IMG/VR virus record: IMGVR_UViG_3300030202_000122
Span: 1-21,601 of that record
DNA length: 21,601 nucleotides
Source of the DNA: a virus
Reading direction: 5' to 3' (one strand)
A model generated the notes under the pieces. The model had not been told where the DNA came from and made no database searches. It was given only the letters and a program-made list of their open reading frames with translations. Below, piece after piece: positions 1-18,473 of this stretch (position 1 is its first letter; every line of letters begins with the position of its first letter). The position numbers and the translations under genes are program-made.

Positions 1-503
1 CTTACTAAGTTATCTATATCTACTGGAGCAGACACAGCACCTTGATTAGCTGCTTGTTTTAATACGTCTATGTTTTCTAAAAATCCTTGAGCTTTAGGTA
101 AAGATACTATTGGTCCTTTAATAACTGTGCCTACAGTAGGAGGGTATTGACCGTTAGATATTTCTGGCATAGCTATAACACTTGGAGACTTAGAAAGTTC
201 TAAAGCAAACTCATTGTCGCCTCCCATCCTATCTGCATGTGGAAATAACATAACCCAACCAACTCCGTAAGCTCCAGCATCTATTATTTGTTTATGTATT
301 TCTGCAAGCTTTTGTCTAGGTAAAGGATATCCTCCCATATTATCTAGGTCTTCTTCAGTAATGTTGAGTATTGTAAAGTGTCCTGTTGGAATTGGTGTTG
401 TAACAAGAGCATCAAAGGTCTTGAGTCTCATTACTTCTAGGGGTGCAAGGTTAAAGAGTAGAGGCAACGTAAGTAAACCTATTAAGGTAATTGCCCACTT
501 CAT
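1..503 (-). CDS. CHASE2-domain sensor protein, N-terminal 167 residues (runs off the left edge)
   Basis: The frame opens at ATG 501-503 and stays open to base 1. It begins with a short N-terminal membrane segment (about residues 4-20, WAITLIGLLTLPLLF). What follows resembles CHASE2, an extracytoplasmic sensory domain: RLKTFDAL near residue 26, a beta strand then ITEEDLDNMGGYPLPR (48-63), an AGAYGVG strand (76-82), LFPHADR then GD (86-96), and a later stretch PVDIDNLV matching the family's downstream pD.DGvvR region. In bacteria CHASE2 is usually followed by three membrane helices and a cyclase, kinase or GGDEF output domain; here that part lies outside the window. The start is well supported by AAGGAG six bases upstream, inside the last codons of the FecR gene. 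Pairing with an adjacent FecR gene is, as I recall, common in bacteria but unexpected in a phage. The output domain is unknown, so signalling cannot be assigned. Confidence 0.82.
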   Translation of the reverse strand, partial: MKWAITLIGLLTLPLLFNLAPLEVMRLKTFDALVTTPIPTGHFTILNITEEDLDNMGGYPLPRQKLAEIHKQIIDAGAYGVGWVMLFPHADRMGGDNEFALELSKSPSVIAMPEISNGQYPPTVGTVIKGPIVSLPKAQGFLENIDVLKQAANQGAVSAPVDIDNLV

Positions 504-504
504 G

Positions 505-1611
505 TTAGTCTCCTTGCGTAATCTTAATGGTAGAATCACCACCACCATTAACTATAATCTGTGTACTCTTACCATTCTGTATCATTACAATAGTATAAGC
601 ATTTGATTTATCTAATTCTAATTTAATTGTATCTTCTAAAACTTTATAAAATGTTATGATGTTATCTGTCAAGAAAGTATTTATTTGAGTTTCACTATCG
701 TATCCTACTTTAGTACCTTTTAAATCTATAGCAGTTTTTAAAATTGTTGAAGTCTGGTCTAACTCATTTACATCTTCTATTATATTTAACAAGTCTTCAA
801 GAAAGTTTACATCAAGATAATTTATGTCTAACTCTGTAAACTCTAAAGTATCTTCTGCAAGATAGTCTGTTTCTAAATCATCAAACTCAAGGAAATCAAC
901 ATCAAGATTATTAACACCGGTCCCTCCATCTTCTCTTTCATTTTGTTCTACTTCCCTAGGTGTATTTACAATTAACATGTTATCAATTAACTCTAGGGTT
1001 AAGTCAAGAATAACGGGGTTTGTGGGTTTAGTTTCAAACATAGAAACTGTAGTAGCTTGATAAGGCTTGTTTAGAACTACCTGTCCCATAGCTGTAGCAA
1101 CAACAATCTCTCCACTAGGTAGACCATCATCGTCTGGTAATAATATAACTAAACTACGACCTAGTTCATCTACAGTTACAGTAAAATCCGTGCCTCTAAT
1201 GCCTATCGTAGCACTTGGAGTATTGATAATTATATTTTCTTTGTCTATAGTTGCTAGTTTTCCTGTGATAAATCTTGCAGTACCACTAGCAAACTGTAGA
1301 GCCATTTTAGATTTAGATGGGTCAACATCATAGATAAACTCATCTATAATTAATTCGGAATGTTCTGTCAGTCTAACTTGACTGTCATCTAAAAAAGTAA
1401 TGCCCAATCTCCCGTTAGAAGTTTGGACATTATCGTAGCTGTTTATGTCTAGAGCTAGAGAGGCTTCATAGGTTTGGTCTCTTACAACTCTACCTGTTCC
1501 GTTTAGTTCAGTTATGTTGCCTATATTAGCAACCGACTGCACTTCCCCCGTCATTTTGATTGACACAAATAGTGCCATTACTGCCACTAGATGTGATGCG
1601 TAACCAGTCAT
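505..1611 (-). CDS. Secreted FecR-domain protein with pentapeptide-periodic acidic tract and curlin-like C-terminus
   Basis: This 368-aa protein begins with a hydrophobic leader (HLVAVMALFVSI, residues 7-18) and a plausible signal peptidase site after SVA (residue 28). Residues 30-180 carry a FecR domain (PF04773 type): a first strand region, NVQTSNGRLGITFLDDSQV (61-79), the helix/strand region around FIYD (92-95), and the hallmark TPSATIGIRGTDF (131-143). A linker follows, then eight contiguous pentapeptides with Leu at 236, 241, 246, 251, 256, 261, 266 and 271 and Asp or Glu at the next position in seven of eight. The last 30 residues (IQNG, then DSTIKITQGD) resemble curlin repeat strands. 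No downstream membrane helix is seen, so this is not a classical FecR anti-sigma factor, and no ECF sigma gene is nearby. Start: ATG 1611 gives the full leader; no clear Shine-Dalgarno is present. Internal ATGs at 1578 and 1554 would shorten or remove the leader. Confidence 0.86.
   Translation of the reverse strand: MTGYASHLVAVMALFVSIKMTGEVQSVANIGNITELNGTGRVVRDQTYEASLALDINSYDNVQTSNGRLGITFLDDSQVRLTEHSELIIDEFIYDVDPSKSKMALQFASGTARFITGKLATIDKENIIINTPSATIGIRGTDFTVTVDELGRSLVILLPDDDGLPSGEIVVATAMGQVVLNKPYQATTVSMFETKPTNPVILDLTLELIDNMLIVNTPREVEQNEREDGGTGVNNLDVDFLEFDDLETDYLAEDTLEFTELDINYLDVNFLEDLLNIIEDVNELDQTSTILKTAIDLKGTKVGYDSETQINTFLTDNIITFYKVLEDTIKLELDKSNAYTIVMIQNGKSTQIIVNGGGDSTIKITQGD
510..515 (-). 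promoter_or_regulatory. Strong ribosome binding site for the CHASE2 gene
   Basis: AAGGAG lies six bases before the ATG at 503 and is made from the terminal Gln-Gly-Asp-stop codons of the preceding FecR gene. It fixes the CHASE2 start and implies translational coupling of the two genes. It is the only canonical site in the csgF-to-CHASE2 module. Confidence 0.8.
787..906 (-). repeat. Eight tandem pentapeptide-coding units (L-[D/E/A]-x-x-x) in the FecR protein
   Basis: Residues 236-275 parse without a gap as LDVDF, LEFDD, LETDY, LAEDT, LEFTE, LDINY, LDVNF and LEDLL. Period five with a fixed Leu recalls pentapeptide-repeat beta helices (PF00805). The residue two before Leu is Asp, Asn or Thr instead of the usual small Ala, so this is at best a divergent relative. 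The nucleotide units are not identical, which means selection at the protein level and not a recent DNA slippage event. Confidence 0.75.
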
Positions 1612-2242
1612 TGTCTAAAGTACTCAGTTGATTTATGTTAAAGGTTCTTGTATTACCTACTTGAGTTAATTTAAAGTACCCACCTGCATAACCTTGACCT
1701 GTAAAGTTTACTACATTGTCATCACCATCAACATTAACGTCATTGGTTGCATCAGCATTATTAATATTAAAGTCAAAGGTGTTACCGTCTCCGTTAATAA
1801 TCCAATCTAAATCTGCATTACTTGCTAAAGATGTAGTTCCTAAATCAAGTGTAAATGTATTTGTACCGCCTGTTACATCAACATTTACATCAGAGTTATC
1901 AGCACCGTAAGTATTAGTTGGGTCTACTTGTATGTTAAACACGTTAGTAGAACCATCAAACTCCCAGAAACCTACAAAGTTATCAGCAGTAATATCACCT
2001 AAAAATTTATTGCTTGAACCAATTTGATTAATATCAATAGTCTGTGTACCGCCGTCTAAATCTAATGCAGTCATTGACCCTGCAGCTGCTGTAGCTCCTC
2101 CTATAATATTACCAGAACCTAACTGCTCTGCATCCAAATTGAATGTAGCACCAGTCTGGTCTATATATATTTCATTGTCAGCCCCGTATGCTATCGATGC
2201 ATTCATCAATGCAATCAGGCTTAGTAATTTTAATGTTTTCAT
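1526..2242 (-). CDS. Secreted curlin-like repeat protein (putative phage-encoded CsgA/CsgB-type amyloid subunit)
   Basis: The 238-aa product starts with a clear Sec signal peptide (MKTLKLLSLIALMNASIAYG, cleavage near residue 20). The rest is low-complexity and rich in Asn, Asp, Gly, Thr and Gln, with alternating hydrophobic strands and G-x-x-N or G-D-G-N turns: IYIDQTG (25-31), EQLGSGNIIGG (39-49), IDINQIGSSN (69-78), VTGGTNTFTLDLG (123-135), NGDGNTFDFNIN (150-161), LTQVGNTRTFNINQ (192-205) and ICVNQN (225-230). This resembles the curlin pattern Q-x-G-x-x-N-x-x-x-x-x-Q but is more divergent than E. coli CsgA. Two Cys (226, 238) sit at the end. It lies directly after csgG, the natural place for a substrate of that pore. 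Start: ATG 2242, with GGAA close upstream and AGAGAGG further back. It could also be another beta-solenoid secreted protein; amyloid formation is inferred. Confidence 0.62.
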   Translation of the reverse strand: MKTLKLLSLIALMNASIAYGADNEIYIDQTGATFNLDAEQLGSGNIIGGATAAAGSMTALDLDGGTQTIDINQIGSSNKFLGDITADNFVGFWEFDGSTNVFNIQVDPTNTYGADNSDVNVDVTGGTNTFTLDLGTTSLASNADLDWIINGDGNTFDFNINNADATNDVNVDGDDNVVNFTGQGYAGGYFKLTQVGNTRTFNINQLSTLDNDWLRITSSGSNGTICVNQNDGGSAVGC

Positions 2243-3032
2243 ATTTCCAATAGCCTCTCTCTATTCCAATATTTATTATATTTAATACCCCTCTTTCTAC
2301 AGCCCTTTGTAAAGCTATAGAAACACTTTCATTCTCTGCTATACCACCTTCTATTTCTACTAGTTCAGTACCAGTTTCTATAAAACGAAATACATCTTGA
2401 GAAACACTTGTTGATAAAATACTTTTAGATACTAATGTTTCCATAAGTACTTCACCTGTAAGCACAGAAACTAATCTTAATGATATAGTAACTGTGTCTT
2501 CCCTAAATTGTTTTGATGTGCCGATACCTAAGTAACGAGCACCACTACCTCCAGATTTTAAATTAGACTCATAGCTAATTACTCCACCTTGAACTAGTAA
2601 CCCTGCGAATAACAAAGGTTTCATCTTGTCATCGTCTTTAAATTCTTTACGTGTGCTACGTATAAGTTGTCTTTCCTTTGTTAGGTCATCTAAACCTACA
2701 CGTTCTACAACTCTAAAAAACTTTCCATTTGCTGTATGTTTAAAAGCTCTAATAAGAAAAGCTTCCGGTGCTTGTGTTACAGCTGTACTAAACAAAGCAA
2801 ATGAACTATTACTTCTTCTTTGACCTGTTAAATCTCTAAAGCTATTAGGGTATATAGCTATAGTTGGTCTTGTTTGTGCTGGAGGTAAATTCCTTAACTC
2901 TTCTGATTGTAAGTTTAAAGTAGCAGTTGATTGTATTTTTTTAGTTAAAACTAAATCACCGCTTTCTTGTATTACTGCACAGCTAGAAAGTAAAATTACC
3001 AACAGGCAAAGATATAGTCGTTGTATTGCCAT
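2178..3032 (-). CDS. csgG: CsgG, outer-membrane curli secretion pore lipoprotein
   Basis: CsgG forms a nonameric outer-membrane lipoprotein channel that exports curli subunits. The 284-aa product has a lipoprotein signal (MAIQRLYLCLLVILLSSC, lipidated Cys18) and family landmarks in order: LTGQ (68-71), FSTAVTQ (81-87), the ER-x-GL-x-x-L region (110-117), then VISYESNLKSGGSGARYLGIG (151-171), GEVL (193-196), VFRFIE (214-219) and IGIERGYW (255-262). Length is close to E. coli CsgG (277 aa precursor). The upstream neighbour is CsgF, its known partner. I chose ATG 3032 because GGA lies about seven bases upstream; GTG 3035 would add one Met. The signal peptide is encoded inside the 3' end of csgF, and the 3' end overlaps the curlin-like gene by 65 nt. 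The pore constriction residues differ from E. coli (see findings). A phage origin is unusual; identification itself is secure. Confidence 0.95.
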   Translation of the reverse strand: MAIQRLYLCLLVILLSSCAVIQESGDLVLTKKIQSTATLNLQSEELRNLPPAQTRPTIAIYPNSFRDLTGQRRSNSSFALFSTAVTQAPEAFLIRAFKHTANGKFFRVVERVGLDDLTKERQLIRSTRKEFKDDDKMKPLLFAGLLVQGGVISYESNLKSGGSGARYLGIGTSKQFREDTVTISLRLVSVLTGEVLMETLVSKSILSTSVSQDVFRFIETGTELVEIEGGIAENESVSIALQRAVERGVLNIINIGIERGYWKYENIKITKPDCIDECIDSIRG

Positions 3033-3477
3033 CACTGTCCGTTATAGTTAAAGTTATTATTCCATCTTCTACGTTGTACACTATTGTGTTACCTTCTAGT
3101 GTAAGTGTTCCTGATTCAGAAGGTATTTCACCAAATAAATTTTCTACTAATTGTCTTGATAACTGTGAATATATTCTTGATTCTAAGTTTCTAATAAATC
3201 TGGCTAAAGTTGTGTTTTCTTTGTCTCTTTCTATTTGTTCTTGTAAAGCTTTTATCTCTGCTTTAAGAGCTTCTTTACGATTAAACTCTTGATTTTCTAT
3301 AGTAAGATAATGTGAGCTAGTGTTATTACCATTAAAACTAGGGCTTTTAAATTTAAATACTATCTCATCTGATATACTATTAACAGACCAAAACATAATT
3401 AATATAGACCAAAAGAAAATACAAAACTTACAGTTTCTTAAAGTCTTATCGCTTTTAAATGTAGGTATTATTTTCAT
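2983..3477 (-). CDS. csgF: CsgF, curli assembly accessory protein that docks on CsgG
   Basis: In curli systems CsgF inserts its N-terminal segment into the CsgG channel and couples secretion to nucleation at the cell surface. The 164-aa product has a hydrophobic leader (CIFFWSILIMFWSVNSIS, 19-36). The mature start EIVFKFKSPSFNGNN (38-52) aligns with the CsgG-binding peptide of E. coli CsgF: the F-x-F, P-x-F and GN positions are kept. A more charged helical segment than in E. coli spans about 62-98 (KEALKAEIKALQEQIERDKE). The C-terminal sheet (TLEGNTIVYNVEDG then TLTITDSDGNTTTI, 126-156) matches the family end, finishing in Phe as E. coli does. The start ATG 3477 lies two bases after the stop of the upstream gene (TAATATG) with no Shine-Dalgarno, so translation probably depends on coupling. 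The last 50 nt also encode the CsgG signal peptide. Confidence 0.9.
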   Translation of the reverse strand: MKIIPTFKSDKTLRNCKFCIFFWSILIMFWSVNSISDEIVFKFKSPSFNGNNTSSHYLTIENQEFNRKEALKAEIKALQEQIERDKENTTLARFIRNLESRIYSQLSRQLVENLFGEIPSESGTLTLEGNTIVYNVEDGIITLTITDSDGNTTTISLPVGNFTF

Positions 3478-3478
3478 A

Positions 3479-3661
3479 TTAAAATATATAACTAATTACA
3501 ACCATAGACAAAGCCATGAATGCTAATACAAATACTTGTACTATAGATGCTATTGTTATTTGTTTCATAGGGTGTACATATATAACTTTTTCTATCCAGT
3601 CTTCACTAGGAGAAAGGTTTACTACTTGTAATATTTTTTTGTTAATCTTTTCTTTGGTCAT
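3479..3661 (-). CDS. Small single-pass membrane protein of the lysis region
   Basis: This 60-aa product has a charged N-terminal half (many Lys and Glu) and one C-terminal hydrophobic helix (about 38-59, TIASIVQVFVLAFMALSMVVIS). I do not recognise the family. It lies between a membrane-anchored coiled-coil gene, which it overlaps by 20 nt, and csgF, from which it is one base apart. Position after endolysin and holin suggests a lysis accessory role (for example a spanin-like or pinholin-like protein), but no spanin lipobox or coiled coil is visible. It could equally belong functionally to the csg module that follows. AAGG about 13 bases upstream is only a weak ribosome site. Confidence 0.6.
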   Translation of the reverse strand: MTKEKINKKILQVVNLSPSEDWIEKVIYVHPMKQITIASIVQVFVLAFMALSMVVISYIF

Positions 3662-3989
3662 CTCTATCTGCCTTTGCTATTTTATCTATATCTATTAAGT
3701 TAGGAACTCCTAACAATGTTTTTAATAACACATCTTGTCTAATACTTTGATTATCCATGGCTCTTACTCTATCTATTAAACTTACTATAATTCCATACTG
3801 ACTATCAAGCTTTGTAGATACTCTTTCTTCCATAGTATCTAGAGATGTTTGTACTTTATCATCTAAAGTATCTAGTTTAGTTTCCATCCCATCAATAATT
3901 CTATTAATAAGTTTCCATACAAACATGCCTAAACCTAAAGCTGCTGCAATAGGAAAACCTAGTTCAGTTATTAAAGCTACTGCATCCAT
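3642..3989 (-). CDS. Membrane-anchored coiled-coil protein (XhlA- or holin-accessory-like)
   Basis: The 115-aa product has one N-terminal transmembrane helix (about 6-28, LITELGFPIAAALGLGMFVW). A helical segment follows with heptad-like spacing (about 31-75: METKLDTLDDKVQTSLDTME), then a polar tail. This architecture is shared by XhlA-type and other small phage membrane proteins that work with holins; sequence alone does not settle the family. The start codon overlaps the holin stop codon (TAATG), so the two are translationally coupled. A second protein of similar design lies at 15692-15937, outside the lysis cassette. The predicted role in lysis is inferred from position. Confidence 0.65.
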   Translation of the reverse strand: MDAVALITELGFPIAAALGLGMFVWKLINRIIDGMETKLDTLDDKVQTSLDTMEERVSTKLDSQYGIIVSLIDRVRAMDNQSIRQDVLLKTLLGVPNLIDIDKIAKADRDDQRKD

Positions 3990-15938: not shown

Positions 15939-16538
15939 TTAACTTCCTTTAAAGTATGACGGTAATCCTATCATAGGTCTACCATCAAATTTATTTTGTT
16001 TAGCATCTTTACTACTTGCATCGTTGTAGTGTAAAAATACCTGCCCACAATCTTTACCTTCAAAAGGTTTTCTCCAATGTTCTACATCACAACCACGATA
16101 CATTAACATATCCCCTTGGTTTAAATTTATTTTAATATTAGGTTCTAAATATATTGACCAATTATCACCACCTAAATTCAAAGTAGTAGATATTTCACAA
16201 GAGTATCTATCTTTGTGTCTTTTTAACTCATCACCTTTTTTATAAATTCTAGCATATGAATATGTTTCAATAAGTTTAACTTCTGATTGTTCTTCCATTA
16301 CAGGCTTTACTTTTTGTAATAAAGTTTCCATAACTATATCACCATAATGTGAATACGTTTCAGGTATTTGTGAGTCATTCCAAACTCCAAAGTATGGTGT
16401 AAACTGTGATATATATTTTTCATCAAATAAATGTCTTGCTACAGCTCGTTTGTTTAAAAAGTATTGATAACAAAAATCTGCTAACTCTGTTGATATAGCA
16501 CCTTTAATTACTTGATATTTATTTTTTTTAAAACTCAT
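15939..16538 (-). CDS. 2OG-Fe(II) dioxygenase-like protein, third of three (199 aa)
   Basis: The family couples oxidation of a substrate to decarboxylation of 2-oxoglutarate using a non-haem iron held by His-x-Asp and a distal His. Here His108-Lys-Asp110 (LKRHKDRYS) and His154 (DVEHWRKPF) supply that triad, and Lys162 (EGKDCGQVFLHY) is a candidate 2OG-binding residue in place of the usual Arg. The strand order around STTLNLG (117-123) and LNQGDMLMYRG (139-149) fits a jelly-roll fold. The protein is soluble without a signal peptide, so it acts in the infected cell. Substrate unknown. It has AGGAG six bases upstream, overlapping the stop of the previous oxygenase gene. Confidence 0.85.
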   Translation of the reverse strand: MSFKKNKYQVIKGAISTELADFCYQYFLNKRAVARHLFDEKYISQFTPYFGVWNDSQIPETYSHYGDIVMETLLQKVKPVMEEQSEVKLIETYSYARIYKKGDELKRHKDRYSCEISTTLNLGGDNWSIYLEPNIKINLNQGDMLMYRGCDVEHWRKPFEGKDCGQVFLHYNDASSKDAKQNKFDGRPMIGLPSYFKGS

Positions 16539-16547
16539 TTACAACTC

Positions 16548-17093
16548 CTATTGAAAGTTTGCAACCATGACTATTCTTTTATCATATATATCAGGAGATT
16601 CTTGATAATGTGCCAACTTACCGTCAAACATAATTACATTATCTTCTTTTGTATTTGAATAAAATTTTTGTTTATCTTCTCTTAAAACTATTGTTCTACC
16701 TTTTGTAAATTTATTTAAATAAACTATAACAACTTTATGTGGTAAGTTTAAATCTGTGTGAGGTATGCTTTCTTTAATCTCACTATGTAATGTTAAGTTT
16801 ATGTTCATCCGATACATAACTTCAAAACTTATATTATTGTAATCTAGTATTTCTTTAAGTATAAAATAACATTTTTCAAAATAAGGCGAAGTACTTACAG
16901 GTATGGCAGGAACTTTGTTACCTTCTATTTCATGCACTTGCCTACTTAAAAGATTATGACTAAAAAAACTCAAATCTTTATTTTTAGAGTTTGTTGTTTT
17001 GTCAAGATAAAACCAATGAAGATAAGGACCTAATACTAATTCTTTTAAATTTTTATATTCTTTAGTTATAGGATTTTTTAATTCAGTAATCAT
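16548..17093 (-). CDS. 2OG-Fe(II) dioxygenase-like protein, second of three (181 aa)
   Basis: The iron-binding triad is visible as His112-Thr-Asp114 (IPHTDLNLPH) and His162 (KLAHYQESP), with Arg173 (YDKRIVMVANF) as the 2OG-binding residue 11 positions further on, the canonical spacing. VVIVYLNKFTKGRTIVL (121-137) and NVIMFDGKLAH form core jelly-roll strands. Length is short but complete. It is soluble and has no signal. The gene starts with an ATGA overlap on the previous oxygenase, so it is co-translated with it. Substrate unknown; its low resemblance to its neighbours suggests a different target and not a recent duplication. Confidence 0.85.
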   Translation of the reverse strand: MITELKNPITKEYKNLKELVLGPYLHWFYLDKTTNSKNKDLSFFSHNLLSRQVHEIEGNKVPAIPVSTSPYFEKCYFILKEILDYNNISFEVMYRMNINLTLHSEIKESIPHTDLNLPHKVVIVYLNKFTKGRTIVLREDKQKFYSNTKEDNVIMFDGKLAHYQESPDIYDKRIVMVANFQ

Positions 17094-17710
17094 TTAAAGG
17101 GATATCCTAAATTCCAACATACTAAAGAGTGTCGTGTTCCTTTTGTTACTGGCTTAACTCTATGCCAAACAAAAGAAGGAAAAACTATTACACTACCTTT
17201 TTGTCTAACTTCTTCACATATTCTTGGTTGTGAGCCTTCGTCTGTATTTCTAAAATCAAACTCTAAATCTCCGCCTTCATATTCTTTAGGGTCAGTAAGT
17301 GATACAGTCATACTAAGTTTTCTTAGCTTACCATGAGTATCTGGATTATCTGGTTGGTTATAAGGTTCTTCATATGAATCACAATGCCAATCATAAAACT
17401 GTCCTTTTTTATATTCTGTAAACTGACAAGCTTCACTAAAATTCCAATCAAAATTCCAACCAGCACTTGCATTTGCTTGATGTATGTAAGGTTGTATTTC
17501 TTTATATATCCATCTATCACTCATCCATACAATATCTGACTTTCTTTTTTTTTGAATGTTTTTTAATTGTACTTCTGTAAGTTCTTTTTTATTATTGTTT
17601 CCTGTAATAGCTATTTCTTTTTTTTGTTCTTTACCGTAACGAACTATATCATCACATATTCTTTCTGGTATAGCAGATTTAAAATACCAATAATACCATT
17701 TAAGATTCAT
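17090..17710 (-). CDS. 2OG-Fe(II) dioxygenase, prolyl-4-hydroxylase/PKHD-like, first of three (206 aa)
   Basis: This is the clearest of the three oxygenases. His109-Cys-Asp111 (FYDWHCDSYEEP), then EYEGGDLEF (143-151), GSVIVFPSFVWHRVKPV with His183 (172-188), and Arg193 (KGTRHSLVCWNLG) give the full Fe and 2OG site. The pattern is that of the prolyl-4-hydroxylase alpha / PiuC-like group common in marine phages, where the physiological substrate is mostly unknown. The product is soluble without signal peptide. It overlaps the end of the sulfotransferase gene by 11 nt and the next oxygenase by 4 nt. Confidence 0.92.
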   Translation of the reverse strand: MNLKWYYWYFKSAIPERICDDIVRYGKEQKKEIAITGNNNKKELTEVQLKNIQKKRKSDIVWMSDRWIYKEIQPYIHQANASAGWNFDWNFSEACQFTEYKKGQFYDWHCDSYEEPYNQPDNPDTHGKLRKLSMTVSLTDPKEYEGGDLEFDFRNTDEGSQPRICEEVRQKGSVIVFPSFVWHRVKPVTKGTRHSLVCWNLGYPFK

Positions 17711-18473
17711 ATTTTTTTCCTATGTTTTTATATTTTTCTATAACAGAAGGAAGTAAAAAATCTTCTATTGGGTACGGTTTCTTTTCTATTTTATCTGTTC
17801 TTATTGTGTGTAAATCTACATCACCAAAAATAGAATCATCATACTGTACCCCTTGTATTTCAAATTGTTTTAAGTTTTTAAAATTATGTTCAAACTTAGG
17901 TATATTAAAAAAATCATAAACACTATTAACTGTACTTTGTGGGTTAGCAATTAGCTGGTCATATGTAATAAACAAATGTTCATAATTTTTTTGTACTAAA
18001 TCAATTTGTTTAATAGCATTTCCTAAAACACCTGTTTCTGGATTCATATAATAATCTGCATCTATTTCAAGATTTTCTTTTTTAACTTTATATGCTTTTA
18101 ATAACGAAGCTAAACACTCTAAAGGGTTTCTATACAAAATTAAAAATTTAATCTTTTTATCAAAATACTTTTCTAATAATTCAAGGTTACCATCTGACCA
18201 CCAATTTGACCTATTAATAACATATTTTGTTTTAAATGTTTCAGAATAAGTATAAAAAGTTTTCCTAATAACATTGTCTAAAGACTCATTATGAGGAAAG
18301 TTTTGGTGTTGAGATAATCTTAAATCTTTTTGATTTTTAATTAAATCAAGCTGGTAAATAATTTCAGTAAGAGGACTATTAGCTGTAAAAGTTATATTTG
18401 TATTTTGATTTAAAATACTACCAAGTAAAGTATTACCTGCACGTTGTAAACTTATACAAAAATATAATTTCAT
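17700..18473 (-). CDS. Sulfotransferase-family protein (257 aa)
   Basis: Sulfotransferases move a sulfuryl group from PAPS to hydroxyls or amines of sugars, lipids or proteins. The N-terminal SLQRAGNTLLGSIL (8-21) is the 5'-phosphosulfate-binding loop, with RAGNT in place of the usual R-x-G-T-T/S. FLILYRNPLECLASLL (110-125) is the 3'-phosphate-binding motif with Arg115 and Ser123 at the canonical eight-residue spacing. ITYDQLIANPQSTV followed by DFFNIP (about 172-196) is a typical family segment. Complete length, no signal or membrane segment. It lies directly after the Gly-rich adhesin and before three oxygenases, which suggests modification of a phage or host macromolecule; substrate unknown. 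No Shine-Dalgarno is evident. Confidence 0.85.
   Translation of the reverse strand: MKLYFCISLQRAGNTLLGSILNQNTNITFTANSPLTEIIYQLDLIKNQKDLRLSQHQNFPHNESLDNVIRKTFYTYSETFKTKYVINRSNWWSDGNLELLEKYFDKKIKFLILYRNPLECLASLLKAYKVKKENLEIDADYYMNPETGVLGNAIKQIDLVQKNYEHLFITYDQLIANPQSTVNSVYDFFNIPKFEHNFKNLKQFEIQGVQYDDSIFGDVDLHTIRTDKIEKKPYPIEDFLLPSVIEKYKNIGKKYES

Follow-up and report, generated by a model that had tools for sequence, protein, structure and literature searches.

A phage curli (type VIII secretion) module with a curlin-like substrate gene and a curlin-like tail on its FecR-domain protein

Overview of the Module

The viral DNA studied here (IMG/VR record IMGVR_UViG_3300030202_000122, positions 1 to 21,601; "the window" below means this whole stretch of 21,601 nucleotides) carries a phage type VIII secretion, or curli, module in which csgF and csgG are followed by genes for a curlin-like repeat protein, a FecR-domain protein and a CHASE2 cyclase. 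That this is a real phage curli module, of the kind described between 2020 and 2022, is well supported. We consider it probable that the module exports a curlin-like solenoid protein, likely making a fibre or coat, with the FecR protein at one end. Three aspects look new: the curlin-type terminal repeat found on nearly all phage FecR proteins; the lack of a kinase domain in the small proteins encoded before csgF, to which a published "histidine kinase" label may refer; and the recognition in the phage module of a pairing of FecR and CHASE2 cyclase known from Campylobacterota.

All module genes lie on the minus strand, and from csgF through csgG and the repeat gene to the FecR gene they form an overlapping chain, with successive overlaps of 53, 65 and 86 bp. 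An earlier note on this DNA had singled out positions 505-3477, a range that also covers the FecR gene, unnamed there, and at whose edge the CHASE2 cyclase begins.

CsgF, CsgG and the Absence of CsgE

The identity of the pore and its partner, which the earlier note had called from the sequence, is borne out by Pfam: the product of csgF (2983..3477, minus strand), the outer-membrane-associated assembly factor, matches PF10614 (E 1.3e-18), and that of csgG (2178..3035, minus strand), the lipoprotein secretion pore, matches PF03783 (E 6.1e-48) and aligns over nearly its full length with E. coli CsgG of known structure in the PDB (E 5.6e-63). In the alignments, the window CsgG has the lipobox LSSC with an invariant Cys19, the N-terminal F-x-x-P-x-F-x-G stretch is common to the window and E. 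coli CsgF, and the constriction loop of phage CsgG is one residue longer than in E. coli. Tyr51 and Asn55 of E. coli CsgG are not kept in the aligned phage loop. The module thus has the features of type VIII secretion, namely a pore of the CsgG family, its CsgF partner and a curlin substrate encoded with the pore. A C-terminal extension ending WVAVQDSAGRRGWVKSDRLIQP, not seen in the window CsgG, was noticed in the CsgG of two large viral contigs of 337 kb and 236 kb (L294 5899-6960 and L276 5992-7029, respectively); it resembles an SH3-type domain.

CsgE, the periplasmic gate factor of the E. coli type, gave no PF10627 match in 8 viral records, including the full-length HTVC008M genome (147,284 bp), with a positive E. 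coli control; the pore would thus be ungated or gated by another factor. CsgE aids secretion and is dispensable for curli, so that its presence is not defining (PMC7029224). The statement of the earlier note that homologues of CsgE, CsgB and CsgC are not seen in the window has to be qualified for CsgB, as the FecR protein ends in a CsgB-like repeat (see below).

The Repeat Protein Encoded after csgG

The gene after csgG (1526..2242, minus strand) encodes a 238-aa protein with a signal-peptide-like N-terminus, rich in G, N, D and T, whose mature part is acidic (29 D+E versus 4 K+R). Its sequence supports the view, already put forward in the earlier note, that it is a secreted curlin-like substrate, and more precisely a homologue of curlin-repeat proteins. 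Indeed, composition-corrected blastp matches it to the first repeat proteins of Pelagibacter phage HTVC008M (E 2.7e-12) and of phage Melnitz (E 1.9e-12), shuffled controls giving no match and reversed ones a single match at E 7.4, and profile comparison agrees with this homology. With tblastn, the 238-aa protein found nothing in the phage records; blastp with the low-complexity filter off recovers the homologues. The Pfam family Curlin_rpt (PF07012) has no match over the cut-off in the window protein itself, gives sub-threshold matches in 11 of 22 close relatives (the best at E 0.021) and exceeds the cut-off in the homologous Melnitz protein.

Sleutel et al. (PMC10192328) describe the curlin kernel as N-$-Psi-$-Psi-$-Q-X-G-X-X, in repeats of 23 +/- 5 residues. 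The first repeat of the window protein, N23-EIYIDQ-TGAT-FNLDAEQ-LGSG, which is also its best (2111..2176, minus strand), matches this kernel except at one position, an Asn. With the search patterns of the same paper, the protein contains three QX10Q motifs, against 0.30 expected in shuffles (P 0.0015), and three degenerate kernels, again above shuffles (P 0.002). A position-weight scan built from 53 bacterial curlin repeats is significant for the Melnitz and HTVC008M proteins and not for the window protein alone (P 0.13). The gene is under purifying selection, with a median ratio of nonsynonymous to synonymous substitution rates (dN/dS) of 0.146, the same level as csgG; all five module genes fall between 0.13 and 0.15.

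AlphaFold, run with an alignment of 22 sequences, folds the repeat protein into an all-beta solenoid at modest confidence (predicted template modelling score 0.70; mean predicted local distance difference test, pLDDT, 70), so that the beta-solenoid which the earlier note expected of the 238-aa product is what the model gives. Longer rungs are followed, from residue 144 on, by two strands per 22-24 residues, a spacing that matches the published curlin repeat. The VIA structural comparison aligns the model with a beta-helix chain of the SufB-SufC-SufD complex (Z 16.4, root-mean-square deviation 3.9, 199 residues aligned), and pectate lyases and tailspikes are also among the parallel beta-helix matches. 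There is no curlin among the VIA matches listed, nor among the top Foldseek matches listed, where absence is not evidence. One has to keep in mind that sparse alignments often yield right-handed curlin solenoids in AlphaFold (PMC10192328); the alignment here is sparse, and handedness is thus not to be read from the model.

These features bear on another reading, to which we give a minor but real share of the probability, in which what leaves the cell is a repeat-protein solenoid, soluble or bound to the cell, that never becomes amyloid and serves, for instance, as an adhesin or as a decoy for rival phages. Irregular repeats with rungs of 22-29 residues, a Cys-containing extension in place of the usual curlin end and a fold that matches many non-amyloid beta-helices would all fit it, whereas the homology to curlin-repeat proteins, the QX10Q kernels and the retention in all loci of CsgF, which is needed for curli assembly, favour an assembling curlin-like substrate. 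As for the extension itself, the repeat protein in the clade of the window ends TICVNQNDGGSAVGC (1526-1570), with two conserved cysteines between which a disulfide is possible.

The FecR-Domain Protein and Its Curlin-Like Tail

The next gene (505..1611, minus strand) encodes a protein of 368 aa with a signal-like N-terminus in which Pfam finds a FecR domain only (residues 62-147; PF04773, E 3.5e-11). Its last 30 residues (508..597, minus strand) read YTIVMIQ-NGKS-TQIIVNG-GGD-STIKITQ-GD, that is, one and a half degenerate curlin repeats. We expressed tails of this kind as a pattern in which a hydrophobic-x-hydrophobic-x-Q strand is separated by 19-22 residues from the Q closing another hydrophobic-x-hydrophobic-x-Q strand, with at most 3 residues left to the end of the protein. 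Among the open reading frames (ORFs) of 174 new loci (described below), the pattern is present in 112 FecR proteins, 118 members of the repeat family and 7 other proteins with curlin motifs; it is absent from all 838 unassigned ORFs and from every CsgG, CsgF, cyclase and small membrane protein. When only FecR proteins with a complete end are counted, 113 of 126 have it in these loci; of the other 13, 12 end in or near a Q-terminated hydrophobic strand and one looks truncated.

The same pattern is found in E. coli CsgB and in two bacterial curlins; for E. coli CsgA, just the looser half of the pattern test holds. In CsgB, the first Asn of the final repeat is degenerate (PMC10192328), as it is in the FecR tail. 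Bacterial FecR relatives align with the phage protein over the FecR domain alone, and the tail is absent from the five bacterial FecR proteins with a complete end (0 of 5). Curlin_rpt has no Pfam match on the FecR proteins. Taken as sequence, a curlin-type repeat at the end of the FecR protein, most like that of CsgB, has good support, with a hint that the protein might nucleate, cap or anchor a fibre.

The cyclase gene that follows is cut by the end of the window, which holds its N-terminal part (3..548, minus strand; PF05226, E 4.3e-12); its probable start is the ATG at 503, behind AGGAG, and full-length relatives have CHASE2 and Guanylate_cyc domains, as expected of an adenylate/guanylate cyclase. 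In Campylobacterota, gene clusters that bring FecR proteins together with CHASE2 cyclases have been described (PMC9239204). A tentative reading, which we hold to be clearly less than even, is that the FecR protein is a fused anchor and sensor, its tail joining the fibre at the cell surface in a role like that of CsgB and its FecR domain relaying the state of fibre export to the CHASE2 cyclase. Such a link from fibre to cyclase is absent from the curli and FecR/CHASE2 literature examined.

It has also been suggested that the module opens the outer membrane so that nutrients or cofactors can be taken up, FecR then being a regulator related to iron (PMC7029224, PMC9599517). An ungated CsgG pore could indeed pass small molecules; CsgF, the substrate and the cyclase are, however, not needed for uptake, and the FecR protein has a curlin-like tail and shows no anti-sigma or sigma-factor partner. 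Pfam finds no anti-sigma domain in it and no sigma-factor match among the window proteins scanned, and its N-terminus is signal-like; the cytoplasmic anti-sigma domain, membrane span and FecI partner of an iron-citrate regulator are thus not seen here. FecR domains moreover accompany CHASE2 cyclases that have no known iron role. The FecR protein need not, then, be an iron regulator, and we regard uptake as an improbable purpose of the module.

Linkage of the Module across Viral Loci

Linkage was assessed in the 80 closest viral loci and in 174 further ones, which were collected by searching with three other phage CsgG proteins and lie on contigs as long as 337 kb. The repeat gene directly follows csgG in 76 of the 80 closest loci, the contigs of the other four ending at csgG or within about 65 bases past it. 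Among the further loci, the count is 118 of 132, obtained with an automatic criterion by which some long overlaps go unnoticed. In the further loci with room for the gene in question, CsgF is present in 167 of 167, FecR in 101 of 101 (2.5 kb or more after csgG) and the cyclase in 60 of 70. Linkage between the repeat protein and csgG in related phages, on which the earlier note had made its proposal depend, is thus near-perfect. A pore without a substrate was considered and rejected, given the linked, curlin-homologous repeat protein.

Four csgG relatives from genome bins were considered as possibly bacterial, and this origin was rejected: the matches in question (L084, L085, L086 and L087, binned as Maricaulis, Flavobacteriaceae, Rhodobacteraceae and Pelagibacter) have the look of phage contigs that carry the curli module and ended up in metagenome-assembled genomes, which makes bin taxonomy unfit for host claims. 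In one rearranged locus (L276 9010-12296), a pair of small membrane proteins stands after FecR and the cyclase is inverted; the module is thus shuffled in some phages yet kept together, and the small proteins travel with it. In five other loci (L031, L032, L041, L056 and L066), the spot between FecR and the cyclase, occupied by a second curlin in myophages, holds a conserved gene whose product of about 128 aa begins with a signal-like stretch and has no curlin repeats.

Genomic Context and Neighbouring Genes

Upstream of the module lie a holin-like gene, a lysozyme gene and phage structural genes for tail and internal proteins. The earlier note spoke of a late operon; the gene order fits, with csgF coming after the genes for tail and internal proteins, the lysozyme and the holin-like gene, and a promoter scan brought no support for it. 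A 1498-aa internal protein has distant relatives (26-27%) in Pelagibacter phage HTVC027P and in phage 023Pt_psg01, which points to a podophage of the HTVC023P type.

This context matters for the proposal, made for Melnitz, that the module has a role in lysis (PMC9004378), the CsgG/CsgF pore being repurposed for the timing or help of lysis, like a pinholin or secretin, and the repeat protein being a plug or a leftover. In the window phage and most of its close relatives, the module sits right behind the lysozyme and holin-like genes; Melnitz cultures did not clump, and with CsgE missing the pore may be open. In HTVC008M and Melnitz, however, the module lies elsewhere, so that the lysis context is not common to these phages; the repeat protein and FecR are conserved and linked as strongly as the pore; and the idea of a Melnitz without curlin is contradicted by its deposited annotation and by the Pfam match. 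A lysis device seems to us unlikely, and export of a curlin-like protein remains the reading we prefer.

One or two small membrane proteins precede csgF in podophages and myophages. In the window, there is a 115-aa protein (3642..3989, minus strand) with one predicted helix and a coiled part, and between its gene and csgF a 60-aa membrane protein recognised by hydropathy (3479..3661, minus strand) and found in about 30 of 80 relatives. The family of the 115-aa protein comprises proteins of 85-116 aa with one hydrophobic segment, and Pfam finds no kinase domain (HisKA/HATPase) in 10 of its members, of 85-115 aa. By position, copy number (one or two) and size, its genes are likely the "HK" (histidine kinase) genes of PMC9599517, described there as short; if the label was meant for them, it is probably a mislabel.

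Away from the module, the window encodes a sulfotransferase-domain protein (17700-18473; PF00685, E 2.9e-11) adjoining a 2OG-Fe(II) oxygenase (17090-17710), and, near them, two more small, similar-looking genes without Pfam match (16548-17093 and 15939-16538).

Comparison with Known Systems

PMC7029224, PMC9599517 and PMC9004378 are, respectively, the papers of Zaragoza-Solas et al. 2020, Wittmers et al. 2022 and Buchholz et al. 2022. Annotation of curli genes in phages goes back to HTVC008M, and detailed descriptions followed from 2020 to 2022. A curli cluster was reported in pelagimyophages in 2020, with guessed equivalents of CsgA/B (PMC7029224), and the podophage module CsgF-CsgG-CsgA/B-FecR-adenylate cyclase, of the HTVC023P type, was described in 2022, CsgF, CsgG and a curli-repeat CsgA/B being universal in the curli-bearing podophage genomes and the FecR and cyclase genes marking the phage module (PMC9599517). 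The GenBank records of HTVC008M and Melnitz also annotate curlin proteins after csgG. The central novelty claim of the earlier note, that a substrate encoded directly after the pore looks new, is therefore incorrect. The functions that it chiefly suggested, namely superinfection exclusion, the holding together of cells, entry of nutrients and release, had likewise been published, PMC9599517 having proposed superinfection defence, sibling capture, import and recombination.

The HTVC023P-type module shares with the window the gene order, the type of marine podophage and the lack of CsgE (PMC9599517); the clade of the window differs in having no second curlin gene, an unrelated 128-aa gene standing there in some relatives, and in having a small membrane protein without kinase domain in the "histidine kinase" slot. 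The clusters of HTVC008M (Pelagibacter) and Melnitz (Methylophilales, OM43) have the gene order of the window, with homologues of its CsgF, CsgG, repeat protein (their first one), FecR and cyclase; unlike the window, they have a second, longer curlin-repeat protein and a module placed elsewhere in the genome. In HTVC008M, this second protein (L082 9471-10796) combines a PA14 domain, with possible sugar binding, and classical curlin repeats.

Bacterial curli have the CsgF and CsgG families in common with the window, and Alphaproteobacteria also have adjacent curlins. At five alphaproteobacterial csgF-csgG-curlin loci, the curlin repeats are more regular than those of the phage protein, and no FecR or CHASE2 cyclase was detected adjoining csgFG, in keeping with their description in PMC9599517 as hallmarks of the phage module. 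The E. coli system (csgBAC/csgDEFG) differs by its CsgE, CsgC and CsgD. Campylobacterota clusters resemble the window in joining a FecR-domain envelope protein to a CHASE2 cyclase and depart from it in having a phosphodiesterase and a tetratricopeptide repeat protein and no curli genes (PMC9239204).

Proposed Mechanism and Implications

During infection, probably late, CsgG and CsgF made by the phage would form a pore in the host outer membrane; the clade of this host reportedly has no curli genes. Through this pore the acidic, divergent curlin-like solenoid protein would be exported, and it would probably stack on the surface of the infected cell, as thin fibres or as a coat. The FecR protein would probably cap, start or tether the fibre through its curlin-like end. 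Its FecR domain could report fibre export to the inner-membrane CHASE2 adenylate cyclase, which would turn some periplasmic state into cyclic AMP (cAMP). The most likely benefit would be an altered cell surface, either excluding rival phages or holding cells together.

Several observations weigh against this scheme. Fibre formation is what we infer, and clumping was looked for in vain with Melnitz (PMC9004378). Besides the missing CsgE, the repeats of the substrate are degenerate, and Foldseek returned no match with E below 0.001 for its model. The tail pattern was drawn first from FecR tails before being tested on new loci. Finally, since the AlphaFold model of the FecR protein has a pLDDT of 33 and the scan with bacterial curlin repeats is not significant for most FecR tails, its role in nucleating or capping is one that we infer.

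That pore, substrate, FecR and cyclase are almost always linked, in very different phages, argues for a working export system and not for a pore by itself. With its curlin-like tail, the FecR protein, hitherto called an iron regulator, acquires a concrete role that can be tested, and, if the reading of this protein as anchor and sensor is true, the phage would not only make a fibre but also sense, by way of cAMP, how its assembly proceeds.

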